From Syntrophorhabdaceae bacterium (GTDB lineage Bacteria; Desulfobacterota; Syntrophorhabdia; Syntrophorhabdales; Syntrophorhabdaceae), in contig JAOAGQ010000034.1 of the NCBI GenBank assembly GCA_026415675.1, positions 1-59,104 of the forward strand: 59,104 bases of DNA, written 5' to 3'. The translations under genes were made by a program, and so were the position numbers. Shown piece by piece: positions 8 through 21,255 of the stretch. The first letter of the stretch is position 1. Each line of letters opens with the position of its first letter. The notes under the pieces were generated by a model, which saw only the letters and a program-made list of their open reading frames with translations, had not been told where the DNA came from and ran no database searches.

Positions 8-766
8 ATGGAATCCTTTAAAAGACTTGTAGAACTCGTAGAGACCTTGAGGGGAGAGAACGGTTGCCCCTGGGATAAAAAACAGACAGAAAAATCTTTT
101 AAAACATTTCTTCTCGAAGAGGTATATGAGCTCATTGAGGCGATAGAGGAAGATAATATATACGGTCTTAAAGAAGAACTCGGGGATCTCCTCTTCCATA
201 TCCTCTTTATCGCCCAGATCTCCAGGGAGAGGGGAAGGTTCGATATAGTTGATGTGATAGACTTCGTCTATGAAAAGATGAGAAAAAGACATCCCCATGT
301 CTTCCACAACGGAGATAGAGATAAACCTGTTGAGAGGATGTGGGAGGAGATAAAAAAAGAGGAGAAGAGAGGGGGTTACTCCCTTCTCTCCAATATACCG
401 AAAGAGATGCCGGCCCTTTTGAAGGCCTATATAATCTCGAAAAAGGTTGCTCGGGTCGGCTTCGACTGGGAGAATATAGAAGACGTATATAAAAAACTAC
501 AGGAGGAGCTTTCCGAATTAAAAAAGGCCGAAGAGTCAGGCAATGAAGAGGAGATAAGGGAAGAGATAGGGGATATCCTCTTTACAATCGTAAACATATC
601 GAGGTTTTACAGGATAGACCCCGAAGATGCCTTAAGGTCTTCTTCGGAGAAGTTTATAAGACGTTTCAATTATGTTGAGAGACAGATTAACCCATCTGAT
701 TCATCGCTTGCGACAATGGATCGTCTTTGGGAGGAGGTAAAATCTAAAGAAAAAAAGAGGGGATAA
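8..766 (+). CDS. mazG: MazG nucleoside triphosphate pyrophosphohydrolase
   Basis: 252 aa, a normal length for two-domain MazG. It hydrolyses NTPs to NMP plus pyrophosphate and acts as a house-cleaning enzyme. Two all-alpha MazG domains are visible: the N-terminal one has GCPWDKKQT followed by EEVYEL and ELGDLL (metal-binding acidic residues), and the C-terminal one has LQEELSEL and EEIGDIL around residues 160-200. The ATG at base 8 is the first possible start and only seven A residues precede it in the window, so no ribosome site can be judged. The last codons form one arm of the terminator shared with the convergent cspA. Confidence 0.93.
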   Translation: MESFKRLVELVETLRGENGCPWDKKQTEKSFKTFLLEEVYELIEAIEEDNIYGLKEELGDLLFHILFIAQISRERGRFDIVDVIDFVYEKMRKRHPHVFHNGDRDKPVERMWEEIKKEEKRGGYSLLSNIPKEMPALLKAYIISKKVARVGFDWENIEDVYKKLQEELSELKKAEESGNEEEIREEIGDILFTIVNISRFYRIDPEDALRSSSEKFIRRFNYVERQINPSDSSLATMDRLWEEVKSKEKKRG

Positions 767-778
767 CCCCTCTTTTTT
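751..778. terminator. Bidirectional intrinsic terminator of mazG and cspA
   Basis: A perfect 12-bp inverted repeat (AAAAAAGAGGGG / CCCCTCTTTTTT) with a 4-nt loop. It has a U-tract on either strand, so it can end both convergent transcripts. The mazG stop codon (764-766) lies in the loop, and the cspA stop (779-781) directly abuts the stem. Confidence 0.93.
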
Positions 779-982
779 TTATTCCGCCTTAGTTACATTC
801 GCTGCCTGAGGACCCTTTGGACCTTTTGTAATCTCAAATTCCACTTTCTCCCCTGTTTTTAAACTCTTAAAACCATCCTGTTTTATTGCAGAAAAATGGA
901 CGAATACATCCTCCCCATTCTCCTGTTCAATAAACCCATACCCCTTAGCATCGTTGAACCATTTTACCTTGCCTACTGCCAT
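779..982 (-). CDS. cspA: Cold shock domain protein (CspA family)
   Basis: 67 aa, a standard single cold-shock domain. It binds single-stranded RNA or DNA and probably acts as an RNA chaperone. RNP1 (KGYGFI) and RNP2 (DVFVHF) are intact. An AAAGGAG Shine-Dalgarno precedes the ATG. It has its own near-consensus promoter (1028-1056) and shares the terminator with mazG, so it is a monocistronic unit downstream of the trp genes. The predicted 5' UTR is only about 40 nt, shorter than those of classical cold-inducible cspA genes, so expression may be constitutive. Confidence 0.95.
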
Positions 983-1098: not shown

Positions 1099-1899
1099 TT
1101 ATGCAAAAGAATTTTTTATCACCCTAAAAAATTCTTCGAATATACCGCCTTTTTCACAGGTAAAGGATGCCTCTTCCCATCTTCTCACAAAGGCACTCCC
1201 TATCACAAACCCATCCACATACGGGGAGAATCTTTCTATCGTCTTCACATCGGACACGCCAAAGCCAAGAACAACGGGAAGGGCAAAGAATGTTTTTATC
1301 TGGATCAACGTCTCCTCAAGGGTTCGGGGAAGCTCTTGTCTCTCCCCTGTCACCCCTGTAACGGAAACGACATATAAAAAACCCTCGGCAACTCGGCCTA
1401 TAATCTCCATCCGTCTTTTTCCTGTAACTGGCGTCACAAGAAAGATGGGTAGTATGCCGTTTTTCTTCAGTTCCTTAAAAAACCATACCCCTTCTTCAGG
1501 GGGGAGGTCAACGGTAAGAACCCCATCGACCCCTGCAAGCCGAGCCTCCTTACAGAACCTATCTAACCCGTATGCGAGAAAGGGGTTACAGTATCCCATA
1601 ATGACAACGGGGATATTATAACGTTTCTTGAAGCTTCTCACCAGACCAAGGATATCTCCAAGTGTAGTTCCTGCCTTCAAAGCCCTCTCCATCGCCCTCT
1701 GTATTACAGGTCCATCCGCCATAGGGTCTGAAAAGGGGACGCCTATCTCTATGATGGAGGCGCCGTTTTTACCGTAGAAATCGAGGAGTTCCCCCGTTTT
1801 ATCAAGACAGGGGTCCCCCCCTGTTAGATAGGGTATAAGGGCCTTTTTCCCTTCTCTTTTTAGTCGTTCGAATGTCACCACAATGCCATTTTTATTCAT
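1099..1899 (-). CDS. trpA: Tryptophan synthase alpha chain
   Basis: 266 aa, normal length. It cleaves indole-3-glycerol phosphate to indole and glyceraldehyde 3-phosphate in the TrpA2B2 complex. The family motif YLTGGDP, the catalytic Glu in [15 protein letters not shown] and the phosphate-binding segment GFGVSD are present. The ATG follows a GGAGGG ribosome site and overlaps the end of trpB by 8 nt, suggesting translational coupling. It is the last gene of the 15-gene aromatic operon. No strong terminator follows, only an AT-rich hairpin in its last codons. Confidence 0.96.
1107..1136. repeat. AT-rich inverted repeat at the 3' end of trpA
   Basis: A perfect 12-bp inverted repeat (AAGAATTTTTTA / TAAAAAATTCTT) with a 6-nt loop, inside the last codons of trpA. 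It is too AT-rich to be a typical intrinsic terminator and has no proper U-tract, but it is the only hairpin near the end of the aromatic operon. It could be a weak terminator or a 3'-end processing or protection site. Confidence 0.4.
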
Positions 1900-3073
1900 G
1901 GGCTTCCCTCCGATGCTTTAAAACGTGGTCCACATCTTTGTCTCCCCTGCCTGATAGATTCACGATCACCACCTTTCCTTTCAGTTCATCCTTATGATTT
2001 ACAACATAGGCTATGGCATGGCTACTCTCAAGGGCAGGGATGATCCCTTCCTCTTTTGACAGAAGATGGAAGGCATCTAACACATCTTCGTCCGTTGCAT
2101 AGGTATACTCCACCCTCCCTGTCTCTTTTAGTTGACTGTGCTCAGGCCCCACACTCGCATAATCAAGTCCCGCAGAGATCGAATAGGTAGAGAGTATCTG
2201 TCCATGTTCATCCTGGAGGACATAACTTTTTGTTCCCTGAAAAATACCGGTTTTACCTGAGGCAAACCGCGCGGCATGTCTGCCCGAGGGGATACCAAGC
2301 CCCCCAGCCTCAACCCCTATAAGCCTTACCTCCTTTCTCCTGATAAAGGGGTAGAATATACCCATAGCATTACTACCCCCTCCCACACAGGCAACTATTA
2401 CATCGGGGAGGGAGTGTTCTTTCTGGACAATCTGTCGTAACGTCTCCTTTCCAATAATCGAAACAAACTCCCTGACCATTGTCGGATAGGGATGGGGTCC
2501 AAACACTGTGCCTATTACATAGTGGGTATCTCTCACATTGCTCACCCAGTCTCTCAGGGCCTCATTGATCGCATCCTTTAAAGTCCTGCTGCCACTTACC
2601 ACACCTTCCACCTCAGCCCCGAGCATCTTCATACGGATCACATTCAGGCCCTGCCTTTTCATATCCTCTGTACCCATATATATTCTACATTTCAAGCCCA
2701 AAAGGGCCGCGGCAGTGGCAGTGGCAACTCCATGCTGGCCTGCCCCGGTCTCAGCGATCACCCTCTTTTTCCCCATAAACTTCGCAAGCAAAACCTGCCC
2801 TATGGCATTATTTATCTTATGGGCCCCTGTATGGCAGAGGTCTTCCCGTTTCAGATATACTCTTATACCGAGTCTTCCCGATAGATTCTCCGCATAGTAT
2901 AAAGGTGTAGGTCTCCCTACGTAATCTTTAAGGTATGAGAGAAGTATGCCCCTGAATTCCTTTGACCTTCTATGGATGGAGAACTGCCTCTCGAGCTCAT
3001 CCAGGGCCCCCATCAATGTCTCAGGAACAAACCTGCCGCCAAATTCGCCAAAATACCCTTTTCTCTTTCCCAT
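1892..3073 (-). CDS. trpB: Tryptophan synthase beta chain
   Basis: 393 aa, a typical TrpB1 length. It is a PLP enzyme that condenses indole with L-serine to give tryptophan. The PLP lysine is in [10 protein letters not shown] (near residue 85), the catalytic Glu is in ETGAGQHG, and the PLP phosphate loop is CVGGGSNA. The N-terminus [13 protein letters not shown] is typical of the canonical TrpA-partnered form, not TrpB2. It starts two bases after trpF and overlaps trpA. Confidence 0.97.
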
Positions 3074-3075
3074 CG

Positions 3076-3684
3076 TTACCTGCCCCTCTCATAACCACAT
3101 AAAGCATCGAAAATTCGTTTCATCTTTTCCGGGTCTTTAACCCCGGGCTTTGATTCCACCCCCGAAGAGATATCGATAGCATAGGGCCTATATTTAAGGG
3201 CACTCAGGATGTTCTCCTCGTTTATACCTCCTGCCAGTATATACGGTCTATCAAAACCTTGAAGGAGGCTCCAGTCAAATGGCCTTCCCCTTCCTCCGTA
3301 ACCATCCACGTATGCATCAAGAAGAGGGAAGGCAGGGGAACTCTTTGCAGATCTGATATCCTCTGCACCTCTTATCCTGTACGCAAAGATAGTGATTTCC
3401 GGTATCATTTCAGAGAGATAGGCCCCAAAGTCCCCGTACACCTGTATCATATCGAGTCTACAAAAATCCCTTATCTTCATCATCTTATCCCAGGGCTCAT
3501 CTACAAAAACCCCCACCTTTGTGACAAAAGGGGGTAGACTACACACAATCCTTCTCGCATCATCGCTTCTTATGTATCTTTTGCTCAACGGATAGAAGAC
3601 AAAACCAAGGGCATCTACCCCCATATCGACAGCGGTCAACGCATCTTTTAAGTTTGTGATCCCGCAGATTTTGATCCGTATCAC
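3076..3684 (-). CDS. trpF: Phosphoribosylanthranilate isomerase
   Basis: 202 aa TIM barrel, third step of the tryptophan branch (PRA to CdRP). The catalytic Cys is in KICGIT at the N-terminus, and the catalytic Asp is expected in the conserved F-V-D segment (VGVFVDEP). AGGINEEN near the C-terminus is the phosphate-binding loop. The start is GTG, overlapping the trpC stop as GTGA, so it is probably translationally coupled. It is a separate gene, not fused to trpC as in enterobacteria. Confidence 0.95.
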
Positions 3685-4469
3685 CGATAATCCCCTTTAA
3701 GCTCCCTTATCTTTTCTGCTGGGTCTACGGAGGTCATAAGGGTGGTACCTATCAGAAAACCCGATACCCCGTATCCCATAAACCCCTCTATATCCCCTCT
3801 TGTTTTAATACCGCTCTCAACCACAACAGGCATGTCATCAGGTATCTCTTTAAGCAACCTCTTCGGTATATCCATGTCCACCTCCATGGTGTGGAGGTCT
3901 CTACTGTTTATCCCGAGGATATACCCCTCCATGTCGGAGACCTTTTTGAACGTCTCTATACCGTGGATCTCAAGGAGCACATCCACATCTATTTCCCTTG
4001 CAATGTTAAGGAAACGTCTTATCTGTTCCCTCTCAAGCGCCTCCCCGATCAACAGAATGGCATCTGCCCCAGAGGCCTTACTCTCTATGATCTCATACTC
4101 ATCAACGATAAAATCCTTTCTCAATACAGGAAGCCCTGTTAACCTCTTTACCTCTTCGAGGTATCCCAAGGAGCCCATGAAGTATCTTTCCTCTGTTATG
4201 ATGGAGATGGCCCTTACACCCCCTCTTATGTAAGCATCCACGAGTCTTATAAGGTCTAAATCCTCAACCAAAACCCCCTTTGACGGGGATGCCCTCTTGA
4301 CCTCCCCTATGATTTTTACCTCGGTTTTTTCCCTTCTTGAGAACACTTCAAAGAAAGCCCTCTTCTCTTTGTCCCTCCCCTTCATTTCAAGCTCAGAGAT
4401 GGGGACCGTGGATTTTAAAAACTTTACCTTCTCTTTTTTTTCAAAGACGATGCGTTCTAAAAACGTCAA
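3681..4469 (-). CDS. trpC: Indole-3-glycerol phosphate synthase
   Basis: 262 aa TIM barrel converting CdRP to indole-3-glycerol phosphate. The segment EVKRASPSKG carries the catalytic Glu and Lys, VLRKDFI holds the general-acid Lys, and GINSRDL and ESGI are family signatures. The best start is TTG at 4469, preceded by AGGGG at good spacing. It lies 32 nt after trpD, one of the widest gaps in the operon. The order trpC-trpF inverts the reaction order. Confidence 0.95.
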   Translation of the reverse strand: MTFLERIVFEKKEKVKFLKSTVPISELEMKGRDKEKRAFFEVFSRREKTEVKIIGEVKRASPSKGVLVEDLDLIRLVDAYIRGGVRAISIITEERYFMGSLGYLEEVKRLTGLPVLRKDFIVDEYEIIESKASGADAILLIGEALEREQIRRFLNIAREIDVDVLLEIHGIETFKKVSDMEGYILGINSRDLHTMEVDMDIPKRLLKEIPDDMPVVVESGIKTRGDIEGFMGYGVSGFLIGTTLMTSVDPAEKIRELKGDYR

Positions 4470-4501
4470 GGATAACCCCTTTATGTATAATCGCAGAATG
4501 A

Positions 4502-5521
4502 CTACATAGATTTTCCTGCATTTACCAGCTCTTCGAGCTTAGCCATCGCGGAACCTGAATCTATCACCCTTTCTGCACGGACTATCCCCTCCGTTAAGTC
4601 CCTGCAATGCCCTGAAACATAGAATGCCGCCCCGGCGTTTATGAGAACCGCTGCCCTTTTCGCCCCCCTCTCCCTCCCCGATAGGACCTCCCTCAAAAAA
4701 AAGGCATTCTCATCGGAATTGCCTCCAATTAACCCTTGGGAATCGTATAAAGGGATACCGTAATCCCTTGGGTCTATCGTGTAGTTTATTATTTGACCCT
4801 CTTTAATCTCTGCCACCTTCGTCTCCGATGTCACAGTGATTTCGTCCATACCATCGAAACCATGTACCACCATTGCCCTCTTTGCACCGAGCCTCAATAA
4901 CGCATGGGCGAACATCTCACATAGCTCCTCCTTATATACCCCAATCAGGAGATGGTCTGCCGAGGCAGGGTTTGTCAGGGGTCCAAGCATGTTAAAGATC
5001 GTCCTTATCCCTATCTCCCTTCTCGGTCCTACCGCATACCTTGTTGAAACATGGTATGTGGGGGCAAAGAGAAAGGCAATACCAACCTCATTCAATAGAC
5101 GTTCCGCCCTATCCGGGGGTGCCTCCACATCAATACCTATCTTTTCGAGTACATCGGCACTACCGCACCTGCTCGAGATGGATCTGTTCCCATGTTTTGC
5201 CACCCTTATACCACCACCGGCAACAACAAAGGCTGCGGCAGTCGAGATATTAAAGGTCATCAAACCATCTCCCCCTGTACCTACAATATCAACGGTTACA
5301 ACATCCCCATTATGTCTTATCTTTAACGCCTTCTTCCTCATAATCATCGCCGCACCGACAAGCTCATCTATGGTCTCCCCTTTTATCCTCAGGGCGGTAA
5401 TAAAAGATGCAATCTGGGCGGAAGTGGCCTTACCCTCCATAATCTCTTCCATCACACAGGCCATCTCCTCTTCTTTTAAATCAACCATATTCACAGCCTT
5501 ATCTATCGCCTCTCTGATCAT
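4502..5521 (-). CDS. trpD: Anthranilate phosphoribosyltransferase
   Basis: 339 aa, matching the family. It transfers phosphoribose from PRPP to anthranilate. DIVGTGGDGLMTFNIST (PRPP binding), KHGNRSISSRCGSADVLE (substrate and phosphate binding) and the metal-binding DE in GMDEIT are present. The frame stays open upstream, but the ATG at 5521 overlaps the trpG stop as ATGA and the protein then begins where TrpD proteins normally do. It is separate from trpG, unlike the fused enterobacterial protein. Confidence 0.95.
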   Translation of the reverse strand: MIREAIDKAVNMVDLKEEEMACVMEEIMEGKATSAQIASFITALRIKGETIDELVGAAMIMRKKALKIRHNGDVVTVDIVGTGGDGLMTFNISTAAAFVVAGGGIRVAKHGNRSISSRCGSADVLEKIGIDVEAPPDRAERLLNEVGIAFLFAPTYHVSTRYAVGPRREIGIRTIFNMLGPLTNPASADHLLIGVYKEELCEMFAHALLRLGAKRAMVVHGFDGMDEITVTSETKVAEIKEGQIINYTIDPRDYGIPLYDSQGLIGGNSDENAFFLREVLSGRERGAKRAAVLINAGAAFYVSGHCRDLTEGIVRAERVIDSGSAMAKLEELVNAGKSM

Positions 5522-6105
5522 CGCAATCCCCCTTTCATTCTTGATAACTCTATAAAGTTTTTTAGGATCTTTTTCCCCTCCTTCGTGAGAATGGATTCGG
5601 GATGAAACTGAACGCCCTCTAAAACAAATCTTCTGTGTCTTATGGCCATAATCTCCCCATCTTCTGTCCATGCGGAGATCTCCAGTTCATCTTCCACCCC
5701 CTTTATATCAACGGCAAGGGAATGGTACCTCGTTGCCACAAAAGGGTTTTCAACGCCTGCCATGATCGTCTTTCCATCGTGATATACCATCGAGGTCTTT
5801 CCGTGCATCAATGCCTTTGCGTTTACCACCCTTCCTCCAAACGCATATGCGATGGTCTGATGGCCAAGACAGACCCCGAGTATAGGTATGAGACCGGAAA
5901 AATGTTTTACCACATCGATAGATATCCCTGCCTCCCGGGGGGTGCAAGGACCGGGGGAGATTACGATCATCTCCGGAGATATCCCCTCTATATCTTTGAG
6001 GGCAATCTTATCATTTCTATACACCACCACCTCTTCGCCCAGTTCACCTAAATACTGGACGAGATTGTAAGTAAAGGAATCGTAGTTATCTATCATAAGC
6101 ACCAT
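5518..6105 (-). CDS. trpG: Anthranilate synthase component II (glutamine amidotransferase)
   Basis: 195 aa class I glutamine amidotransferase that supplies ammonia to TrpE; it may also serve PabB. The triad is visible: Cys in LGVCLGHQ, and His and Glu in VQFHPES. GPGxP appears as SPGPCTPREAG. It follows trpE by one base and ends in an ATGA overlap with trpD. The N-terminus MIDNYDSFTYNLVQYL is canonical, beginning at the ATG at 6105 or three codons later. Confidence 0.95.
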   Translation of the reverse strand: MVLMIDNYDSFTYNLVQYLGELGEEVVVYRNDKIALKDIEGISPEMIVISPGPCTPREAGISIDVVKHFSGLIPILGVCLGHQTIAYAFGGRVVNAKALMHGKTSMVYHDGKTIMAGVENPFVATRYHSLAVDIKGVEDELEISAWTEDGEIMAIRHRRFVLEGVQFHPESILTKEGKKILKNFIELSRMKGGLR

Positions 6106-6106
6106 A

Positions 6107-7594
6107 TCAACCTATTATCTCCTTCAATTCAACGATGGATTTTACAAGGGCTTGGGATTTGTGGATCGTCTCCATATACTCTTTCTCAGGGATAGAATCC
6201 GCCACTATCCCTGCCCCTGCCTGTATGTATATCTTTCTCCCCTTTTTAAGAAGTGTCCTTATGGTGATGCAGAAATCCATGTTCCCGTTGTAGGCAAAAT
6301 ACCCCACACAACCTGCATAAAACTCCCTCCTCTCCTTTTCCAGTTCTTCTATAATCTCCATGGCCCTGATCTTAGGTGCCCCTGACACTGTCCCTGCCGG
6401 AAAAGTCGCTATAAAGATATCGAAGGCATCTATTTTGTCTTTCTTCTTTCCCTTTACCGAAGAGACGATGTGCATAACGTGGGAATACCTCTCTATCCCA
6501 AAAAATTCAGGGACATAAACACTTCCAACCTGGGCCACCCTTCCCACATCGTTCCTCCCGAGGTCAAGGAGCATCACATGTTCAGCCCGTTCCTTTTCAT
6601 CGGAGAGGAGTTCCCTCTCGAGGGCTTCGTCCTCTATCCTGTCCCTGCCCCTTCTTCTCGTCCCGGCCAGAGGTCTTACCTCTATTTCATCATTCTCAAG
6701 CCTTACCAAAGTCTCCGGGGAAGAGCCTATGAGGCTGTATTCGATGTAATCGAGTAAAAACATATAAGGTGATGGGTTCACAACCCGTAAGGCCCTGTAT
6801 AGACTTACACTCTCTGCCTCTGTCTCAAGGGTAAACCTCTGGGAGAGGACAACCTGGATGATATCCCCGTTATGGATATATCCCTTCGCCCTTCTCACCA
6901 TGTTTTCAAACTCCTCCTTCGTCGTATTGCTATCCATCGTGTTGACGGAGAAGTCTGTCTCCCTTTTCACCTTCAGAGTAGAACGGATCATCCCCTGCAA
7001 ACAATCGAGTTCGCTGAGCCCCCTTTCATATACCTCTTTTTCCTCTTCTTTATCTTCTGCAAAGAGATATACGAAGAGCCTCATTCGTCTTGTGTAGTTA
7101 TCGAATACGATCAGTTTCCTCGGAAACATAAAATACATATCGTATATGTTGAGACTTCTCTTTGAAGAATCGGGTAAATTTTCAAAAAATCTGACCACAT
7201 CGTAACCTGCATAACCTACGGCCCCTCCAAACATACCGGCATTATCGGGGAGGTTATGGCCTTTTATCTCTCCCATCACCTCTCTCAACAGAAGAAGGGG
7301 GTTTTCCGACCCCCCTTTGGCCTCTATTAACCCTTCCAGAAATACCCTTTCCCCTATACTTTTGAATGTAATGAACGGGTCGTAACCTATGAATGAAAAC
7401 CTCCCAAGCCTCTCCTTCGCCTCCACGCTTTCAAGCAAGAAGGACGGCGATTCAGGGTATACCTCCTTTAATTTCATATAACAGGAGAGAGGCGTATCGA
7501 GATCCGCCAGAATATCCCTGAAATACGACACAAGCCTTCTCTTCTTTAAAGGCAACAGAATATCCTTGATCGCCAACCTATCCATCAAAAACAC
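6107..7594 (-). CDS. trpE: Anthranilate synthase component I
   Basis: 495 aa. It makes anthranilate from chorismate and ammonia and commits carbon to tryptophan. The feedback-inhibition signature LLES (in SFLLESVE) is present, so Trp inhibition is likely retained on top of attenuation. The catalytic core has SPETLVR, PLAGTRRRG and the C-terminal AGAGIVADS. It starts at GTG 7594 or, three codons in, ATG 7585, inside the end of tyrA. It is followed by trpG after one base. Confidence 0.95.
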   Translation of the reverse strand: MFLMDRLAIKDILLPLKKRRLVSYFRDILADLDTPLSCYMKLKEVYPESPSFLLESVEAKERLGRFSFIGYDPFITFKSIGERVFLEGLIEAKGGSENPLLLLREVMGEIKGHNLPDNAGMFGGAVGYAGYDVVRFFENLPDSSKRSLNIYDMYFMFPRKLIVFDNYTRRMRLFVYLFAEDKEEEKEVYERGLSELDCLQGMIRSTLKVKRETDFSVNTMDSNTTKEEFENMVRRAKGYIHNGDIIQVVLSQRFTLETEAESVSLYRALRVVNPSPYMFLLDYIEYSLIGSSPETLVRLENDEIEVRPLAGTRRRGRDRIEDEALERELLSDEKERAEHVMLLDLGRNDVGRVAQVGSVYVPEFFGIERYSHVMHIVSSVKGKKKDKIDAFDIFIATFPAGTVSGAPKIRAMEIIEELEKERREFYAGCVGYFAYNGNMDFCITIRTLLKKGRKIYIQAGAGIVADSIPEKEYMETIHKSQALVKSIVELKEIIG

Positions 7595-8402
7595 CCTTTT
7601 TTTCTATCCCTTTACCCTTTTCCCATCCCAGATTCGCCTTAAGGCTCGCCAGAAGCCTCTCCAGTTCTTCATAATCTCTGCTCCGGATGATATGTTTTAG
7701 ATATTCGAGTCTTGCCGTAATCTTATCGACCTCCTGGAGGGAGTAAGGGTTAAAGAGTATCTCGGAGAGGAGGTGGGTATCTTCGGAGAGGACCCCCCTC
7801 GCTATCTTCATATGTCGGGCAAAGGTCGTGCCTGGTACCACCACCCTGTCAACACATGCCGCAAAGGACATGGAAGAGATAAAGGGTATGGTAAGGGAAT
7901 AGGCCATCATCCTGTCGTGCTCATCGAAGGTATAATGGAAAATCTTCAACCCGAGTCCTTCAAAAAAAGTCTTGAAAAAATCAACACCCCTTTTATCGGA
8001 GCCTTTTATCACGATTACACTTTCATCTCTCAACTCATCCATATTTGCAAAGGTAGGGCCAAACATAGGGTGCATGGAGACAAAAGGAAAGTCCCCCTTC
8101 TCGTAAAAGGGGGCAAGGTCCTTCTTTATGGATGCTATGTCGGCGATAATACAGTCCTTACCTATAAAGGGGAATGCACTTTCAAAGGCAGAAACCGTCT
8201 TGGATAGGCTCACAGCGTTTATAAGTATATCGGGGGTGTGTAGCGAAATCCCCTCCAATGAATCCAATACGGTCACTTCCTTTTTTTCAAAAACCCTTAA
8301 CCTCTCTTTTTTTATATCAAAGACCGCCACATCATGTGCCTTTGATAACTGAAGGGCAATCCATGCCCCCATGTGTCCTACACCTAAGACAACTATCCTC
8401 AT
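7578..8402 (-). CDS. tyrA: Prephenate dehydrogenase (TyrA)
   Basis: 274 aa. It oxidatively decarboxylates prephenate to 4-hydroxyphenylpyruvate; arogenate use cannot be excluded. The N-terminal Rossmann fold is marked by VLGVGHMG, and SMHPMFGP carries the catalytic His. The all-alpha dimerisation domain follows from about residue 170. There is no ACT or fused chorismate mutase domain, so feedback control is probably weak. Its ATG overlaps the pheA stop as ATGA. Confidence 0.9.
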   Translation of the reverse strand: MRIVVLGVGHMGAWIALQLSKAHDVAVFDIKKERLRVFEKKEVTVLDSLEGISLHTPDILINAVSLSKTVSAFESAFPFIGKDCIIADIASIKKDLAPFYEKGDFPFVSMHPMFGPTFANMDELRDESVIVIKGSDKRGVDFFKTFFEGLGLKIFHYTFDEHDRMMAYSLTIPFISSMSFAACVDRVVVPGTTFARHMKIARGVLSEDTHLLSEILFNPYSLQEVDKITARLEYLKHIIRSRDYEELERLLASLKANLGWEKGKGIEKKGVFDG

Positions 8403-9481
8403 CTGTCTGCCTCCTTATGGGACTTATAACACCCCAGAAATTTACAGGTAATGGTATTCTCTCTTATCTTTTTCAACACCTCCTTGACCTTCGGGTCTTT
8501 ATCTGAACCTTCAAAATCGGAGAAGAAGATGTAGCTTCCAAGGTTGTTACGGGTGGGCCTCGACTCAATCCTTGTGAGGTTTATATTCGCCTCGGAGAAG
8601 AGTCGAAGCACAGAGAATAAAGCCCCTGCCTCATGCTTCACAGAGAAAATGATCGAACACTTATCCCCCTCCTCCACCTCTTGATGTTTGGACAGGACTA
8701 TAAACCTTGTCATATTTGATGGATGGTCCTCTATACTTTCCTTTATGACTTCCAGACGGTAAAGGTCCGCACAGAGCCTGCTCGCTATCACCCCGCATGC
8801 CTCAGGTCTTTCCCTTGCAAGCATCTTTGCCGCCCCTGCCGTATCGTAATAGGGCCTTGCCTCAAGTTTATGCCTCAAAATAAATTCACGACACTGGGCA
8901 AGGGCCTGGGGATGGGAATAGACGACCTTCAGGTCCCTGTATTCTACATCGGGCAATGTGAGGAGGGCATGATGTATGGGGATATTGATCTCCCCCACTA
9001 TCTTAAGTTTTGTCTCGATAAGGAGGTCGTTCACCTGGGTTACGGCCCCTTCAAGGGAATTTTCCACAGGGACGATACCATAATCGAGGAGCCCTGTTTC
9101 AACCTCATAGAAGACCTGATAAAACTCCTTGCAAGCCACAGGCACAAGAGAGGGGTCGTATTGAAGGGATGCCACCTCACTGAATGCACCGTGTTCACCT
9201 TGAAAACCTATGATTTTAAGGTCCCTCTCCTGAATCCTCTTGCTCTCCTCTATGATCTCCCTGTAGAGTCTTTCAGAAAACTGAGGGGTTAACGTATTGT
9301 GGGAGAAACTTCTAACAAACTTGAATACCTCCCTTTCCCTTTCTTCATCGGTTATGCTTTTCTTAAATCTCTTTGCCCTCAAGGCAAGTTCCATTCTTTG
9401 GTTAAGTAGCCCCAAGATCTCCCCATCGATCATATCTATCCTCTGCCTTATGGCAGCCAGATCAAATCCCTTCATGTCCAT
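8399..9481 (-). CDS. pheA: Bifunctional chorismate mutase / prephenate dehydratase (P-protein)
   Basis: 360 aa with three domains: AroQ chorismate mutase (about 1-90, IRQRIDMIDGEILGLLNQR), prephenate dehydratase (about 92-270, GFQGEHGAFSE; TRFIVL marks its end), and a C-terminal ACT domain (about 278-350) with the Phe-binding ESRPT motif. It takes chorismate through prephenate to phenylpyruvate. The ESRP motif implies allosteric inhibition by Phe. Its mutase domain also has to feed tyrA, because no other chorismate mutase is in the operon. It overlaps aroC by 10 nt. Confidence 0.96.
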   Translation of the reverse strand: MDMKGFDLAAIRQRIDMIDGEILGLLNQRMELALRAKRFKKSITDEEREREVFKFVRSFSHNTLTPQFSERLYREIIEESKRIQERDLKIIGFQGEHGAFSEVASLQYDPSLVPVACKEFYQVFYEVETGLLDYGIVPVENSLEGAVTQVNDLLIETKLKIVGEINIPIHHALLTLPDVEYRDLKVVYSHPQALAQCREFILRHKLEARPYYDTAGAAKMLARERPEACGVIASRLCADLYRLEVIKESIEDHPSNMTRFIVLSKHQEVEEGDKCSIIFSVKHEAGALFSVLRLFSEANINLTRIESRPTRNNLGSYIFFSDFEGSDKDPKVKEVLKKIRENTITCKFLGCYKSHKEADR

Positions 9482-10464
9482 ATCCTCCCGATATTTCCAT
9501 TTAGCATCATCAAATCGGCAAATACAATCGCCGTTACTGCCTCAATGATGACAGGTACCCTTAACGCAAAACAGACATCGTGTCTCCCCCCCACAGAAAT
9601 CTCCACAGAACTGCCGTCTCTGATGTCTACCGTCTTCTGAGGTATACCTATCGAGGCGGTGGGTCTTATTGCCACCTTAAAAAACACCTCATTTCCATTT
9701 GTGATACCCCCGTTTATACCCCCTGCATTGTTCGTTTCTGTCTTACCGCTTATATCGAGAATCCTATCGTTGAACTCACTCCCCCTCATCCCTGCCCCGG
9801 CAAAACCTGCCCCGAACTCTATACCCTTTACCCCTGGTATCGAGAATACGATGTGGCCTATCAACGACTCTACAGAATCGAAAAACGGTTCTCCAAGTCC
9901 GACAGGAACACCCTCCACCCTGCAGAGGATGATCCCCCCCACCGAATCCCTTACCTCCATAGCGGACTTGACCGCATATTCGATATCGGTAATACCCCCT
10001 GCCTCTATGAGTTCTGCCCTTACCTCCACAGGTTTTATCACCTTTTTTGCGATCACCCCTGCTGCAACAAGACCTACCGTAAGCCTCCCGGAAAACTGCC
10101 CCCCTCCCCTGTAATCGTTGAATCCACCGTATTTTTTATAGGCGGTGAAATCGGCGTGGCCTGGTCTTACCCTGTTACGGATGGATGCATAATCCTCTGA
10201 AATATTCTCTCTATTTTCAAAGAGTATTGTGATCGGGGCCCCTGTTGTTCTTCCGTTATATACCCCGCTTTCAATTATCGGGATATCCCCTTCCCTCCTC
10301 GGGGTAGTCCCCGGTTGGCCTGCCCTTCTCCTTTTCAAGTCATGATTAAAATCGTCATGATCGACAGGAACTCCGGCAGGGCAACCGTCTATAACAATGC
10401 CCACCCCTTTGCCGTGGGATTCGCCAAAGATAGAGACCCTAAATATCCTGCCAAATGAATTCAT
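9472..10464 (-). CDS. aroC: Chorismate synthase
   Basis: 330 aa, at the short end of the family (usually 350-390). It converts EPSP to chorismate using reduced FMN. Signatures GESHGKGVGIVIDGCPAG, RRRAGQPG, RPGHADFT, GGGQFSGR and the C-terminal GGRHDVCF are all intact, so the shorter length reflects trimmed loops and C-terminus rather than damage. The ATG overlaps the aroA stop (ATGA). Confidence 0.96.
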   Translation of the reverse strand: MNSFGRIFRVSIFGESHGKGVGIVIDGCPAGVPVDHDDFNHDLKRRRAGQPGTTPRREGDIPIIESGVYNGRTTGAPITILFENRENISEDYASIRNRVRPGHADFTAYKKYGGFNDYRGGGQFSGRLTVGLVAAGVIAKKVIKPVEVRAELIEAGGITDIEYAVKSAMEVRDSVGGIILCRVEGVPVGLGEPFFDSVESLIGHIVFSIPGVKGIEFGAGFAGAGMRGSEFNDRILDISGKTETNNAGGINGGITNGNEVFFKVAIRPTASIGIPQKTVDIRDGSSVEISVGGRHDVCFALRVPVIIEAVTAIVFADLMMLNGNIGRIWT

Positions 10465-11717
10465 GTTACTCTCCTCACCCTGTCCAATTCTTCAAAAAAA
10501 TTCGGGTATGACTTGGCTACACACAGATGGTTATGTATAGTTACAGGGCCTCTCCCGTTTAAACCTGCGATGGCACAGGCCATGGCGATCCTGTGGTCGT
10601 TGTGTGAATCTACCACCCCTCCCTTTATCGCACCCCCCCTTATCGCCATTTTGTTTTGAGAAATCTCCAAATCGATACCCAGCTTACTAAATTCGTACAT
10701 GAGGGTTATAGCCCTGTTGCTCTCTTTGTGTTTGAGTCTATCCACCCCGTAGATAATACTTGTCCCTTCACAGTTTGCCGCGAGGGCAACAAGGGGAGGG
10801 AATAGATCCGGGGAGTCGCTTGCATCGAAGCTAAATGCCTTGAGTTCACCCTTTCTGACGCTCACACCCCTGTCAGAACCTTCAACAGAAGCCCCTACTG
10901 TTGATAAAACATCCAAAATCGCCCTATCCCCCTGGGATGAGGTAACATCTAAACCTTCTATTCTTATAGAACCTGCGATGGCCCCTGCCACAAGGAAAAA
11001 GGCAGCCCCTGACCAATCCCCCTCCACCGCGAAGACCGTTTCTTTATACCTCTGCCGTCCCGGGATAAAGAATTCATCTATATCCTGCCTCCAGTGGGCT
11101 TCTACACCGAATTTATCCATAGTCTCTAAGGTCAACCTTACATACGGTTTACTTTTGAGGCCATCCACTTTAACTATCGAATCCCCTTCCAACACGGAAA
11201 GGGCCATAATAAGGCCGCTTATAAACTGGGATCCTTCGTTACCATTTATGGTAATCTTCCCCGACTTTAATCTCCCCTTCACCTTAACGGGGACGTATCC
11301 GTTTTCGGTCTTGCAACGCCCGTTTAATAGGTTCAATTTTTCCACCATCCCAACAGGTCTTAATAGAAGGGAACCTCTCCCGTAAAGGGTGATCTCTTCT
11401 TCCGATAATGCCGCAATCGGTGTGAACATCCTCAAACAGAGGCCTGACTCATTACAATCGAGGGTATGGTCTATAAAAGCCCTCTCGAGGAGATTTCCGT
11501 TACCTTTTATAACGACCTTTTCTTCCTTTCTATAGACCTCTGCCCCTAAGGAAGAGGCAATGTTGATCGCCGCCAGGGCATCATCGCAGTAGGTGGGGTT
11601 TTCGATCTCGGAGGTACCGTAAGCGAGAAGGGAGGCCGCAACGGCCCTTATCATAGAACTCTTTGACGGTGGGGCGCAGATCACACCTTCAACGCTCGAT
11701 GGTTGAACTACTCTCAT
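10461..11717 (-). CDS. aroA: 5-enolpyruvylshikimate-3-phosphate synthase
   Basis: 418 aa, a two-lobed EPSP synthase that joins PEP to shikimate 3-phosphate. PPSKSSMIRA holds the N-terminal substrate-binding Lys, and GNEGSQFISGL and the late HKESNRA and DHRIAMA motifs are present. The motif usually read LxGNAGTAxR appears as LDCNESGLCLRM, so this looks like a divergent class II-type enzyme. The start lies 29 nt inside the aroE-aroK gene with a GAGGTG ribosome site. Confidence 0.93.
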   Translation of the reverse strand: MRVVQPSSVEGVICAPPSKSSMIRAVAASLLAYGTSEIENPTYCDDALAAINIASSLGAEVYRKEEKVVIKGNGNLLERAFIDHTLDCNESGLCLRMFTPIAALSEEEITLYGRGSLLLRPVGMVEKLNLLNGRCKTENGYVPVKVKGRLKSGKITINGNEGSQFISGLIMALSVLEGDSIVKVDGLKSKPYVRLTLETMDKFGVEAHWRQDIDEFFIPGRQRYKETVFAVEGDWSGAAFFLVAGAIAGSIRIEGLDVTSSQGDRAILDVLSTVGASVEGSDRGVSVRKGELKAFSFDASDSPDLFPPLVALAANCEGTSIIYGVDRLKHKESNRAITLMYEFSKLGIDLEISQNKMAIRGGAIKGGVVDSHNDHRIAMACAIAGLNGRGPVTIHNHLCVAKSYPNFFEELDRVRRVT

Positions 11718-13047
11718 CGTAACACCTCGATATCACTTCTTCTATTCTCTTATTCGCTGTTGAAATGACCATATCTGATACATCTCCGTAATACGGTATC
11801 CTCATCTTCACCATCCTCTCCATATCCTCTTTCCCCGATACGCCTTCAAGCAAAGGTCTTGAACCATCCCCCTTCACCCTCTGGGCAAGGGTCTCTATAT
11901 CCGCCCACAACCAGATGTTTATGCAATTTTCTTTAAGGATATCCCTGTTTTTCTCCTTCAACACAACACCCCCTCCACAGGAGACCACAGAGGGATTGAT
12001 ATTTTTTAAGTTCTTTAGCTCATCTTCCTCCATTTTTCTAAAGGCCTCTTCCCCGTCGTTTTTGAAGATCTCCTTTATCGATACCCCCGATCTCTCTTCG
12101 ATCACCCTGTCCATATCGATAAAATACATATTATGCCTCTTTGCAAGTCTCTGTCCTATGGTTGTCTTCCCGCTACCCATGAATCCGATCAGGGCTATAT
12201 GCCTTTTCCTCCTCGTATCGTTCCTGTAGATCGCATCCTGCATTACATTAATCGGGGCATCAAAACCCGTAAAGTATTTGAATGCCTTTGCCCCCTGATA
12301 TATGAGCCATTCTCTCCCGTCTATGATTCTACACCCCCTTCTCTTCCCGTCCCTTACAAGCTGTGTTTCTTCCCTGTAGTTCGCATCGAAGATTACCTGC
12401 GTTTCCTTCAGTAACTCGGGTTTCACAATGGTTCCTGTAAAAGATATGGTGGATACGATAATATCTGCCGTCTCTATGGCCCTGTTTAACCCTTTGAAGG
12501 AAGCGGTTTTACACCCCATTCTCTCGGCGAGCATCTCCGCCCTCTCATGGGTTCTGTTTATTATCGTAACCTCCGCCCCCTCCCCTTTTAAGGCATAGGC
12601 AGCGGCAGAGGCAGCACCCCCTGAACCCAAAAGGAGAACCCTCTTCCCTTTAAGGGGTACCCCGTTCGCATAGAAGGCATCCTTGACCCCTGCCACATCC
12701 GTGTTAAAACCCTTTGACAGACCGCCTTCGAAGAGTACGGTATTTATGGCCCCTATCTCTTTTGCCTCTCCTTCCACCTCATCGACAAGGGCGTACATCG
12801 CCTCTTTAAAAGGGGCCGTCACGTTTATTCCCGCCATGCCTATCTCCCTCGCCACCTCTAATGCCTCCTCTGCGGTATATGCGGCAATCCTCGTATAGAC
12901 TCCGTTGATTGAAGAGACCCTGAATGCCTCATTGAACATGGGGGGACTTAAACTGTGTAAAACAGGGTTTCCTACAACGGCATAAATCTTTTTCCTTATT
13001 AAGTCCTCTGAAAAAGAGTCATTTCTTCTTTTAATATCTCTTTCCAT
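11689..13047 (-). CDS. Fused shikimate dehydrogenase - shikimate kinase
   Basis: 452 aa with two catalytic domains. Residues about 20-275 are an AroE-type shikimate dehydrogenase: SLSPPMFNEAF (shikimate site), NVTAPFKEA with the catalytic Lys, FNTDVAG with the catalytic Asp, and LLGSGGAASAA for NADP. Residues about 283-445 are an AroK-type kinase: Walker A GFMGSGKTT, the DMD shikimate-binding motif, CGGGVVL and the lid SRPLLEG. It performs steps 4 and 5 of the pathway (dehydroshikimate to shikimate 3-phosphate). It overlaps aroD by 17 nt and aroA by 29 nt. Confidence 0.94.
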   Translation of the reverse strand: MERDIKRRNDSFSEDLIRKKIYAVVGNPVLHSLSPPMFNEAFRVSSINGVYTRIAAYTAEEALEVAREIGMAGINVTAPFKEAMYALVDEVEGEAKEIGAINTVLFEGGLSKGFNTDVAGVKDAFYANGVPLKGKRVLLLGSGGAASAAAYALKGEGAEVTIINRTHERAEMLAERMGCKTASFKGLNRAIETADIIVSTISFTGTIVKPELLKETQVIFDANYREETQLVRDGKRRGCRIIDGREWLIYQGAKAFKYFTGFDAPINVMQDAIYRNDTRRKRHIALIGFMGSGKTTIGQRLAKRHNMYFIDMDRVIEERSGVSIKEIFKNDGEEAFRKMEEDELKNLKNINPSVVSCGGGVVLKEKNRDILKENCINIWLWADIETLAQRVKGDGSRPLLEGVSGKEDMERMVKMRIPYYGDVSDMVISTANKRIEEVISRCYDESSSTIER

Positions 13048-13684
13048 CTATCAACTCCAGGAGCGTCTCCATCTCATCGATAGAGAATTGGCCATCCCCG
13101 CTCTCCTTACCCTTTTCCGGGGCAACAAAGGTAAAGGGACTGCCCAGAAAGAGGGAGGCAACCCTCGTTATTCGACCTTTATCCCCCATACCGATGACGA
13201 TGATCCTTTTCCCTTCATCGACAATACCGAATAGACCTAAGAGCCTTATGTTATCAGCCGATGTGTTCACCTTGCATGAGATCTTCACAATGTCAGCCCC
13301 GTATCCAAAGGAGAGATTAATGATCTCTTTTAAAGAGTCCACAGGCGGGGTCTTTTCATAGTCATGAAAGGACAGGATCACCTTGCACCCCTTAGACCTC
13401 GCCTTTTCTATCACCTCTCCCTTAGCCCTATCATCCATCTCAAGCTCTATATCCACATATCTTGCCCCTGCCTCAATGGCAGCGAGAAGGTACTCTAATC
13501 TGTTTTCATCACCCTTTTTATCAGGCCTGTACGTTGCGATAAGGTCTTTCCCCATAGAAAAGACCTCTCTTACCTCCTCCAGGGTAAGGGCGATTCTGTC
13601 CATCCTTATCTCTGCCAAATCTATATTTCTCTTTTCTTTTAATATGTTAAGGCCATCTTTTTCACTCAAACTTACACATATCAT
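13031..13684 (-). CDS. aroD: 3-dehydroquinate dehydratase, type I
   Basis: 217 aa, a class I (Schiff-base) enzyme that dehydrates 3-dehydroquinate to 3-dehydroshikimate. YVDIELEM, the catalytic His in LSFHDYEKTP and the Schiff-base Lys in DIVKISCKV are visible, as is QFSIDEME near the C-terminus. It overlaps aroB by 23 nt at its start and the aroE-aroK gene at its end. Confidence 0.94.
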   Translation of the reverse strand: MICVSLSEKDGLNILKEKRNIDLAEIRMDRIALTLEEVREVFSMGKDLIATYRPDKKGDENRLEYLLAAIEAGARYVDIELEMDDRAKGEVIEKARSKGCKVILSFHDYEKTPPVDSLKEIINLSFGYGADIVKISCKVNTSADNIRLLGLFGIVDEGKRIIVIGMGDKGRITRVASLFLGSPFTFVAPEKGKESGDGQFSIDEMETLLELIDGKRY

Positions 13685-14699
13685 TTATTAACCCTTCTAT
13701 TTCATTTAGTTTTATCCTCTCTATAGATGCCTCTCCCAAGCGGTGGAGCAAAATCGCATAAATATAGTCTCCCTCCCGTTTTTTATCTTTCCTTATGGCA
13801 TCTATGATGGTATCGGCCTTTCCGTCAAAGTGGACAGGCAGTCCGTACCCTTTTAGTATCCCGTATATCCTCTCCACATCCTCTCTCTCGATATAACCTT
13901 TTATTTCAGAGAGGTAAGCCTCAAAGGCCATACCGAGGCTCACCGCTTCACCGTGGCTTATTTGAAGGGTTTTTTCAAGGGCATGGCCTATGGTGTGACC
14001 GAAATTTAATATCCTCCTCTTTCCCCCCTCCCTTTCATCTTCCGCAACAATCGAGGTCTTAAGCTTCAAAGAATCGTGGACGATCCTCTCTATCCCGTAT
14101 TCTTTAAGGGAAATAATCGATGTCCTCTCCTTTTCCATAAACGATAAAAGGTCATAATCGCCGATCAAACCGTGCTTTATAGCCTCGGCAAATCCGTTCT
14201 TTAACTCCCCTGGGGTTAGGGTTTTTAAAAGGTTAAAATCGCACAGGACAAAATCTGGCTGATTGATGGTGCCTATCAGGTTTTTATATCCAAAAAAATT
14301 CACGCCGTTTTTCCCCCCTACCGCCGCATCCACCTGGGCAAGGAGGGTGGTCGGCACAAAGGCAAAAAAAAGCCCTCTTAGGTAGGTTGAGGCGACAAAA
14401 CCGGCTATATCGCATACAACCCCTCCCCCGATCCCCACTATCTTTGTCGACCTATCAGCTTCAAAATCCATTAATTCTTCATAAATCCCCTTCACCGTAT
14501 CGAGGCTTTTATTAATCTCCCCCGGTTCGATTACAATCCTTCTAAAATCGGAAATCTTTTCACCGTAGAGGCGGTCAACATTCGTATCCGTTATCACCAC
14601 CGTCTTTTCCACATCCACAAGCCGGGGTAGTTCTTCAATGGAACCCCCCAAAAATATCCTGGAGAGACCCCTATCATTTTTTAGCTCTATCTCTCTCAT
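13662..14699 (-). CDS. aroB: 3-dehydroquinate synthase
   Basis: 345 aa, normal length. It converts DAHP to 3-dehydroquinate with catalytic NAD+ and a divalent metal. [34 protein letters not shown] and the metal-binding His in [12 protein letters not shown] are present. Its ATG overlaps the aroF stop as ATGA, which suggests coupled synthesis of the first two enzymes. Confidence 0.96.
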
Positions 14700-15508
14700 C
14701 TACAACCTTCCATAAATTTTTCGAGCATCCGTATTTTTCCCATCATCAAGGAGAATTCATCGGGGTTTAGCGTCTGTTCCCTATCGCATATGGCCTCAGA
14801 AGGGTTTTTATGAACCTCCACTATGATCCCATCGGCCCCGGCGGCGACAGAGGCCATACTTAATGAACCTACAAGGCTTGCCTTCCCCGAGGCATGGGAG
14901 GGGTCTATTATTACGGGCAGGTGTGTGAGCTCCTTCAATGCAGGAACGGCACTTATATCGAGGGTATTTCTCGTATACGTCTCAAAGGTCCTGATCCCCC
15001 TCTCGCAGAGGATCACATCCCTGTTTCCGCCGTCGAGGATATATTCCGCACAGTTCAACCATTCTTCAATCGTTGAGTTCATCCCCCTTTTAAGGAGTAC
15101 CGGTCTTCTCGCCTTTCCAACCTCTCTCAAGAGGGAAAAGTTCTGCATATTTCTTGCCCCGATCTGTAGTACATCCGCGTATTCTGAAACCCACGAAACA
15201 TCCCTGGGATCTATCACCTCTGTCACAATCGGAAGACCTGTCTCCTCCTTTGCTTTCTTTAGTATCTTCAATCCCTTTAAACCCAGGCCCTGGAAGGCAT
15301 AAGGGGAAGTCCTCGGCTTAAAGGCCCCTCCTCTCAACATATCTGCCCCTGCCTTTTTCACCGCAATAGCCGTCTCAATCGTCTGTTTCTCGCTCTCAAC
15401 GGAACAAGGACCGGCAATTACACAGAACCCCTCACCTATCACAACATCCCCTACATAGACAACCGTCTTCTCATGTTCCTTCAAAGCCGTGTGCCTCATG
15501 TTTTTCAT
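14696..15508 (-). CDS. aroF: DAHP synthase, type I-beta, without a regulatory domain
   Basis: 270 aa. It condenses PEP and erythrose 4-phosphate to DAHP, the entry step. Signatures: [40 protein letters not shown] and the metal-binding DPSHASGK. The start is ATG 15508, with AGGAGAAGAGG just upstream. The frame is open 20 codons further, but that stretch crosses the attenuator's terminator. The catalytic barrel begins about 25 residues in, so neither an ACT/ferredoxin-like nor a chorismate-mutase-like regulatory domain is fused. Allosteric feedback is therefore unlikely, leaving the attenuator as the visible control. Confidence 0.94.
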
Positions 15509-15537: not shown

Positions 15538-15576
15538 AAAAAAAGGCCATGGGTTTTATTACACCCATGGCCTTTT
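15538..15576 (-). terminator. Attenuator terminator (3:4 hairpin) before aroF
   Basis: Minus strand: AAAAGGCCATGGGT, an 8-nt loop, ACCCATGGCC, then seven T residues. This is a 10-bp GC-rich stem extended by A-U pairs with a U-tract, a textbook intrinsic terminator placed after the leader ORF and 30 nt before aroF. Its 5' arm can pair instead with the end of the leader ORF. Confidence 0.93.
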
Positions 15577-15612
15577 ATAGCCTTTCTTAGGCTCTAAAAA
15601 GGACAGGGGTGT
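15561..15612 (-). promoter_or_regulatory. Antiterminator (2:3) pairing of the aromatic attenuator
   Basis: Leader segment ACACCCCTGTCC (15601-15612, minus strand) can pair with GGCCATGGGTGT (15561-15572), the 5' arm of the terminator, at 10 of 12 positions. Forming it would block the terminator. The same leader segment is shared with the 1:2 hairpin, so the three structures exclude one another. Confidence 0.82.
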
Positions 15613-15689
15613 GGCATGGAGTAAAAATACCAGAAACCAAAATAATTTCTAAATGTTATCTCCATGCCACACTCGTATTTCCTGTTCAT
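15594..15689 (-). CDS. Aromatic amino acid leader peptide (attenuator peptide)
   Basis: 31 codons from ATG 15689 to TAG 15594. Ten residues are aromatic, and residues 16-23 read Y-F-G-F-W-Y-F-Y, carrying Phe, Tyr and Trp codons. The run lies just before segment 2 of the attenuator. A ribosome stalled there would disrupt the 1:2 hairpin yet leave the antiterminator segment free; one that reaches the stop would cover it, so the terminator forms. The predicted transcription start is about 2 nt before this ATG, so translation is either leaderless or begins at the in-frame ATG 15665 (23 aa, with AGGAAA upstream). Both versions include the aromatic run. Confidence 0.85.
   Translation of the reverse strand: MNRKYECGMEITFRNYFGFWYFYSMPHPCPF
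15609..15672 (-). promoter_or_regulatory. Leader 1:2 hairpin of the aromatic attenuator
   Basis: Perfect 13-bp inverted repeat inside the leader ORF: GTGTGGCATGGAG (15660-15672) and CTCCATGCCACAC (15609-15621), minus strand, with a 38-nt loop that holds the Phe/Tyr/Trp codon run. In an untranslated leader it would sequester segment 2 and leave the terminator free to form. Confidence 0.88.
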
Positions 15690-15697
15690 TGTACATA

Positions 15698-15725
15698 ATT
15701 ATATACAATCTGACTTTTTTGTCAA
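15698..15725 (-). promoter_or_regulatory. Promoter of the aromatic amino acid superoperon
   Basis: Exact consensus boxes on the minus strand: TTGACA (15720-15725) and TATAAT (15698-15703), with a 16-nt spacer. The predicted start is near 15691, two bases before the leader ORF. It is the only strong promoter found ahead of the 15-gene unit. Confidence 0.92.
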
Positions 15726-21209: not shown

Positions 21210-21255
21210 GCTTTCAATAACTGAAAGGCATACCCTCCTTAAAGCTACCCCGAAA

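Follow-up and report, generated by a model that had tools for sequence, protein, structure and literature searches.

A predicted attenuator reading Phe, Tyr and Trp in front of a complete aromatic amino acid operon, and its sister leaders

A 15-gene operon for chorismate, Phe, Tyr and Trp in a Syntrophorhabdaceae genome is very probably gated by one ribosome-mediated transcription attenuator whose leader peptide would read all three aromatic amino acids together. It was found in the window, the whole 59,104-nucleotide stretch of DNA analysed here, where clustered codons for the amino acids that the operon makes are accompanied by an intrinsic terminator before aroF, an antiterminator that excludes this terminator and a 1:2 hairpin. 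The sequences compared show the parts and how they are conserved, pairings that exclude one another, and a codon content that follows the downstream genes. One leader reading three amino acids would couple the common trunk of the pathway and its three branches without a protein regulator.

The leader region and the operon behind it

The sigma-70 promoter consists of TTGACA (15725-15720) and TATAAT (15703-15698) on the minus strand and, as the preliminary description had it, matches the consensus, at 12 of 12 positions with a spacer of 16. The leader ORF behind it (15689-15594, minus strand) has 31 codons that encode MNRKYECGMEITFRNYFGFWYFYSMPHPCPF, then a stop. The length had been left at 23 to 31 amino acids with the run Y-F-G-F-W-Y-F-Y; the run stands, and the 31-amino-acid start is taken as the correct one because the distance from the -35 box to the first ATG is constant among relatives. 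TTGAC is placed 36-39 nt 5' of the leader ATG in 16 of the 17 aroF loci of the order, and in 17 of 19 leaders, those 17 in which a -35 box was found, 7-11 nt separate the end of the best -10 hexamer from the ATG. Since the window leader ATG lies about 8 nt 3' of the end of the -10 box and a Shine-Dalgarno sequence is absent, the peptide is probably translated leaderless, with transcription beginning at or beside the AUG. The mean anti-SD pairing energy is +0.5 kcal/mol for the leaders and, at the same loci, -8.3 kcal/mol for the starts of aroF. The aromatic run is hardly a matter of chance: none of 5,000 dinucleotide shuffles of the region gave an eight-residue window with at least seven aromatics including all three, and the binomial probability is 2e-7 per such window at the operon's own aromatic frequency. 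The elements of the leader region are as follows.

15698..15725, minus strand: sigma-70 promoter TTGACA-16-TATAAT; predicted transcription start at the leader ATG or a few nt 5' of it
15594..15689, minus strand: leader peptide gene, 31 amino acids, without Shine-Dalgarno (from sequence)
15621..15644, minus strand: control codons Y16 F17 G18 F19 W20 Y21 F22 Y23 (YFGFWYFY; from sequence)
15660..15672, minus strand: segment 1 (GTGTGGCATGGAG), anti-antiterminator, partner of 15621-15609 (from folding; seen in only 6 of 19 leaders tested)
15601..15621, minus strand: segment 2, in which 15621-15609 pairs with segment 1 and 15613-15601 with the terminator 5' arm (from folding and relatives)
15579..15593, minus strand: small hairpin AGCC-TAAGAAA-GGCT inside the antiterminator loop, between leader stop and terminator (from sequence and folding)
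15541..15576, minus strand: intrinsic terminator 3:4 (AAAAGGCCATGGGT / ACCCATGGCCTTTT), U run to 15538 (from sequence and folding)

The window leader folds more stably than its shuffles (z = -9.35). Its 1:2 helix joins 15672-15660 to 15621-15609 with 13 of 13 pairs and -29.6 kcal/mol, the perfect hairpin first described. In the antiterminator (2:3), 15613-15601 onwards pairs with the terminator 5' arm; the 10 of 12 pairs originally given for that stretch are there but make it too short, since the predicted fold comprises some 14 pairs and encloses a nested hairpin (15593-15579), at -24.4 kcal/mol. A hairpin recurs at this position in most relatives, and its sequence differs. The terminator (15576-15541) has 14 pairs and -24.4 kcal/mol, and the seven U once ascribed to its tail do form a run (15544-15538), but four of the seven lie within the stem. 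Terminators of the type GGCCATGG...CCATGGCC are confined to these attenuators in the window's genome, where attenuators elsewhere were located by model and pattern searches only.

Behind the terminator, on the minus strand, the gene order is aroF-aroB-aroD-aroEK-aroA-aroC-pheA-tyrA-trpEGDCFBA, and NCBIfam bears out the earlier claim of a complete aromatic operon of 15 genes. Except where stated, the identities below are from NCBIfam.

14696..15508, minus strand: aroF, DAHP synthase
13662..14699, minus strand: aroB, 3-dehydroquinate synthase
13031..13684, minus strand: aroD, type I 3-dehydroquinate dehydratase (below cut-off, E 9e-36)
11689..13047, minus strand: aroE-aroK fusion, shikimate dehydrogenase and shikimate kinase
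10461..11717, minus strand: aroA, EPSP synthase
9472..10464, minus strand: aroC, chorismate synthase
8399..9481, minus strand: pheA, chorismate mutase-prephenate dehydratase (also Pfam PDT)
7578..8402, minus strand: tyrA, prephenate dehydrogenase
6107..7594, minus strand: trpE, anthranilate synthase component I
5518..6105, minus strand: trpG, glutamine amidotransferase
4502..5671, minus strand: trpD, anthranilate phosphoribosyltransferase (ORF overlaps trpG; true start probably internal)
3681..4469, minus strand: trpC, indole-3-glycerol phosphate synthase
3076..3684, minus strand: trpF, phosphoribosylanthranilate isomerase
1892..3073, minus strand: trpB, tryptophan synthase beta
1099..1899, minus strand: trpA, tryptophan synthase alpha, last gene of the unit
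750..779, minus strand: candidate operon terminator 3' of trpA, 13-pair stem and U-rich tail (from sequence)

Most adjacent genes overlap or almost abut and a strong terminator follows trpA, so the genes form one unit that leads from DAHP to the prephenate products and tryptophan. The genome holds one DAHP synthase of this type, and the trpE product is the only Chorismate_bind protein found in it. Trp is scarce in the operon's own proteins (1099-15508), with 16 Trp codons in 14 genes, or 0.36% of residues.

The full 15-gene order is kept in G016, G012, G013, G007, G042 and G038, where aroF is cut by a contig end, and is nearly complete in G003 and G026, where pheA is apparently reduced to its mutase part. 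The unit of G028 is without pheA and tyrA; that of G002 is without pheA, and its tyrA is a remnant. In G037 and G039 the trp genes are either missing from the neighbourhood or some 5 kb away, yet the leader retains Trp, as fits a leader that controls DAHP synthase.

Codon content of the aroF leaders and their sisters

A search for DAHP synthase across 60 related genomes, plus named ones, yielded 17 usable aroF loci in the order, all with the same layout of aromatic run, terminator and then aroF. Two regions of named genomes (L191, L194) came from wrong contigs and were left out. A comparison of homologous leaders had been proposed as a check, and all 17 keep the aromatic cluster, the antiterminator and the terminator, the latter two with pairs changed on both sides. 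Relatives that lack both the aromatic run and the alternative pairings had also been envisaged; instead, the run and the antiterminator are kept in 17 of 17 aroF leaders. All of these leaders encode a Phe/Tyr/Trp cluster, with single residues missing in a few: Phe is present in 15 runs, Tyr in 17 and Trp in 16. Selection would act on the amino acid rather than the triplet, since both Phe codons and both Tyr codons are used.

The same switch precedes other genes as well, according to matches of a covariance model built from the 17 aroF leaders. A class-I aminotransferase (PRK06836 family) has 39 leaders with Phe, usually with Tyr too, and in the window's own genome (L142, G000:C29:24605-24710) the Phe/Tyr leader MAMFGTCTFYGFYFYFRGLHPGIVLL stands before the aminotransferase. 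In L142 a second terminator-like hairpin lies immediately behind the first. A second aminotransferase has 11 leaders (L145, L146, L147, L149, L155, L205, L207, L209, L210, L212 and L221), nearly all with six to eight Tyr, as in NSYYYYYYYAKGHSCRTFA. These poly-Tyr leaders occur mainly in one genus that also bears Phe-rich leaders before the first aminotransferase. In genus g4, the leaders of aminotransferase A are almost pure Phe and those of aminotransferase B are Tyr. Trp is found in the run of 16 of 17 aroF leaders versus 2 of 50 aminotransferase leaders (Fisher P = 2e-12, uncorrected for phylogeny, as are all codon-content statistics here), and in both of the latter it falls outside the aromatic stretch. 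Leaders with Tyr/Phe runs also precede a gene like that of an ADP-forming acyl-CoA synthetase (L160, L240, L241), which perhaps serves to make aromatic amino acids from aryl acids.

A separate, Trp-only attenuator with terminators precedes TrpB2 in the window's genome (MMRGKKVYSMVWWWQ, with VWWWQ; L190, G000:C74, leader near 21240). Its counterparts elsewhere read NWWWRKL (G021), NNWWWRRKL (G035) and SWIWWRRVSVV (G038); TrpB2 was identified by family search in G000, by protein similarity in G021 and G038 and by position only in G035. The window's genome accordingly carries an FYW attenuator before genes for all three amino acids, an FY attenuator before a Phe/Tyr step and a W attenuator before a Trp gene. 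By inspection, a further Trp leader, WAWWWQ, with a terminator precedes a TRAP-type substrate-binding protein gene (L301, G015:C39), possibly part of a Trp-controlled transporter.

Gene loss offers a similar comparison. No prephenate dehydratase was found in G002, G003, G026 and G028 by a Pfam PDT search in which four relatives and 14 controls were positive; this supersedes a search of eight genomes with the window pheA protein, which gave no matches and is weak by itself. These four genomes are near-complete, and the remainder of the aromatic operon is present in them. The aroF leaders of G026 and G028 are without any Phe codon (CCYWWYYYAYLRL; AYTGWWWYRS). There are exceptions: G002 is without pheA but retains Phe codons in its leader, the leader before a stand-alone pheA in G009 (L227) includes two Trp codons, the run of L012 has Arg in place of Trp, and the phylum-level aminotransferase leader L250 contains Trp. 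The tracking of downstream genes by codon content, as judged from these sequences, is a strong pattern and not an absolute one. Read in this way, the sister leaders are natural codon swaps, ready-made on one RNA scaffold, and they make control-codon specificity directly testable.

An effectively single-valent attenuator, in which just one amino acid, such as Trp or Tyr, is limiting in practice and the remaining aromatic codons are mere passengers, is unlikely, although there is something to be said for it. Trp, with one codon and as the rarest residue at 0.36% of the operon proteins, could dominate through that single codon, and Tyr is the most frequent of the three, in 17 of 17 runs. However, nearly every aroF leader has all three residues, and leaders with the same switch before other genes drop exactly the residues that those genes do not make, which passengers would not do.

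Conserved pairings and the proposed mechanism

In the aligned leaders, 96.6% of terminator cells are paired and six pairs have changed on both sides, a result reached by 0 of 500 shuffles. The first six antiterminator pairs are formed in 17 of 17, with four pairs changed on both sides (9 of 500 shuffles reach this), and in 15 of 19 leaders the 2:3 pairing outdoes that of shuffled segments (combined P about 1e-18). The 1:2 helix passes the same comparison in only 6 of 19, so that this hairpin, central to the preliminary description, is by this measure real but lineage-specific, and optional within the family. Of 46 genomes in the order, 45 have matches to the covariance model, a count that is not fully independent because the genomes are related. 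The predicted ribosome-mediated attenuator is, on this evidence, conserved across a bacterial order.

The antiterminator core, GCACCC:GGGTGC, pairs in 65-66 of 66 distinct leaders, paralogues included. Depending on the leader, GCACCC is read in different frames as Leu-His-Pro, Gly-His-Ser or Val-Arg-Leu; since the core is kept while its encoded residues differ, the RNA and not the peptide would be under constraint. This bears on a TnaC-like arrest, in which the stall would be set off by a free aromatic compound that the nascent peptide detects inside the exit tunnel, and not by uncharged tRNA. The leaders are rich in aromatics and most have a conserved His-Pro near the end, but the peptide is unconserved beyond its aromatic richness and the His-Pro region is conserved as RNA, being Gly-His-Ser or Val-Arg-Leu in other leaders, so that such an arrest is very improbable. 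Slightly less credible still is an ordinary constitutive terminator beside a short ORF, with the operon controlled elsewhere, for example by a repressor or by internal promoters. Promoter-like sites do exist inside the operon, in about the number expected by chance, and against this stand the mutually exclusive pairings conserved across an order and the codon content that fits the downstream genes. A T-box or other described riboswitch would suit an amino acid operon with a leader terminator, but its probability is negligible, as no Rfam family, T-box included, reaches the gathering score in the window and the leader is an ORF in all relatives. These last three were rejected on the conservation of RNA instead of peptide, the conserved exclusive pairings and the Rfam result, respectively.

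For the preferred ribosome-mediated attenuator, we infer stalling, termination and a response to each of the three amino acids along the following lines. The transcript would begin at or beside the leader AUG and the peptide would be made without a Shine-Dalgarno sequence. When charged tRNA-Phe, tRNA-Tyr or tRNA-Trp is short, the ribosome would slow on codons 16-23 and block the pairing of segments 1 and 2, leaving 15613-15601 free to pair with the terminator 5' arm before the 3' arm is made, and polymerase would continue into aroF. When all three are plentiful, the ribosome would reach the stop codon and cover segment 2, and the terminator would form. The terminator would also form when no ribosome has loaded, as the 1:2 hairpin would then hide segment 2, a step limited to lineages with the hairpin. 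The ribosome footprint sizes used for this geometry are the usual values. With codons 16-20 in the A site, segments 1 and 2 would lie on opposite sides of the ribosome; with codons 21-23 there, the 5' part of segment 2 that serves the 1:2 helix would be covered and most of 15613-15601 free; and a ribosome at the stop codon would cover 15613-15601. The geometry thus agrees with the original proposal that a stall frees segment 2 and a ribosome at the stop covers it, and modelled pre-terminator transcripts with a stalled ribosome form the antiterminator fold in the window and in nearly all relatives.

Known systems and leaders beyond the order

The classical attenuators are trp, pheA and his of E. 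coli and Salmonella (reviewed in PMC1183508). The window leader shares with them a leader peptide with control codons, a 2:3 antiterminator, a 3:4 terminator and, in the window species, a 1:2 hairpin, and the working principle proposed here from sequence, read-through on starvation, is the same. Unlike them, it has codons for three amino acids of one biosynthetic tree, its antiterminator arms are farther apart and enclose a nested hairpin, it is apparently leaderless and its 1:2 hairpin is optional. The preliminary description considered three aromatics in one peptide to be unusual. The ilvGMEDA attenuator of E. coli is multivalent, one leader peptide reading Ile, Leu and Val. In ilvGMEDA (named in PMC1183508), too, several amino acids made by the operon are encoded in one leader peptide; it differs in its pathway, whereas the window leader precedes the route from DAHP to three end products in one unit and has paralogous leaders with subsets of its codons.

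The nearest aromatic case is aroR-aroF of Corynebacterium glutamicum, together with a Phe uORF before aroF in Acholeplasma. The aroR attenuator has the leader motif F-Y-F and is induced under Phe limitation, according to PMC4046766 and PMC11802643, the latter citing Neshat 2014. It is likewise an aromatic leader peptide before a DAHP synthase gene, a likeness in kind only; its motif has no reported Trp, and its unit is smaller. The uORFC-13-1 motif of Acholeplasma (PMC8632094) also combines an upstream ORF holding at least one Phe codon with a terminator before aroF, but it has a reported ribosome binding site and belongs to another lineage. The trpL leader ORF of Sinorhizobium meliloti, shown experimentally to be leaderless (PMC7298713), starts at the transcript 5' end, as the window leader would by its sequence; it reads Trp only. 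The claim of unusualness therefore needs qualifying: reading several amino acids has precedents in ilvGMEDA and aroR, while neither a leader with codons for Phe, Tyr and Trp nor a matched set of sister leaders turned up in the literature search. The attenuation principle is classical; the predicted three-aromatic leader and its matched sisters appear, as far as was found, not to have been reported before.

Other families of the phylum have further leaders, their genes assigned by inspection. Those with aromatic codons stand before DAHP synthase (L253, L255, L259, L262), shikimate kinase (L256, L260), an ADTH-synthase-like gene (L257) and DUF362-like and metallo-beta-lactamase-fold genes (L252, L254); in front of a LeuA-like gene (L258) the leader is Leu-rich.

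A broader reading can be put forward only tentatively, and is somewhat doubtful as a whole. It holds, first, that the leaders form a family, modular and probably leaderless, whose common RNA switch with interchangeable codons (FYW, FY, F, Y or W) splits control of the pathway among operons, and, second, that an aromatic leader with alternative pairings precedes the same aro operon in DPANN archaea. DAHP synthase matches 67-76% identical to that of the window occur in archaeal genomes of one phylum, the archaeal ribosomal protein S28e being present in those members that were tested; on the G064 contig, genes for a CDC48-type ATPase and an archaeosine-pathway protein lie close by. Matches to this DAHP synthase are dispersed by horizontal transfer. 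Leader-peptide attenuation before the aro operon of these putative DPANN archaea is possible, judging by their leaders. If functional, these would bring translation-coupled attenuation into a domain in which a literature search of partial coverage found no leader-peptide attenuation, and the case would be the first in Archaea. A search upstream of archaeal trpE gave no W-only ORFs. At 16 archaeal loci (L270-L281, L283, L284, L196 and L198), aroF is preceded by a short ORF with abundant Phe and Tyr and, in many cases, Trp. The ORF ends within or next to the 5' arm of a conserved hairpin (combined P = 1e-17), most of whose loops have a U tract, and this arm could instead pair with a segment that adjoins the start codon (combined P = 8e-8).
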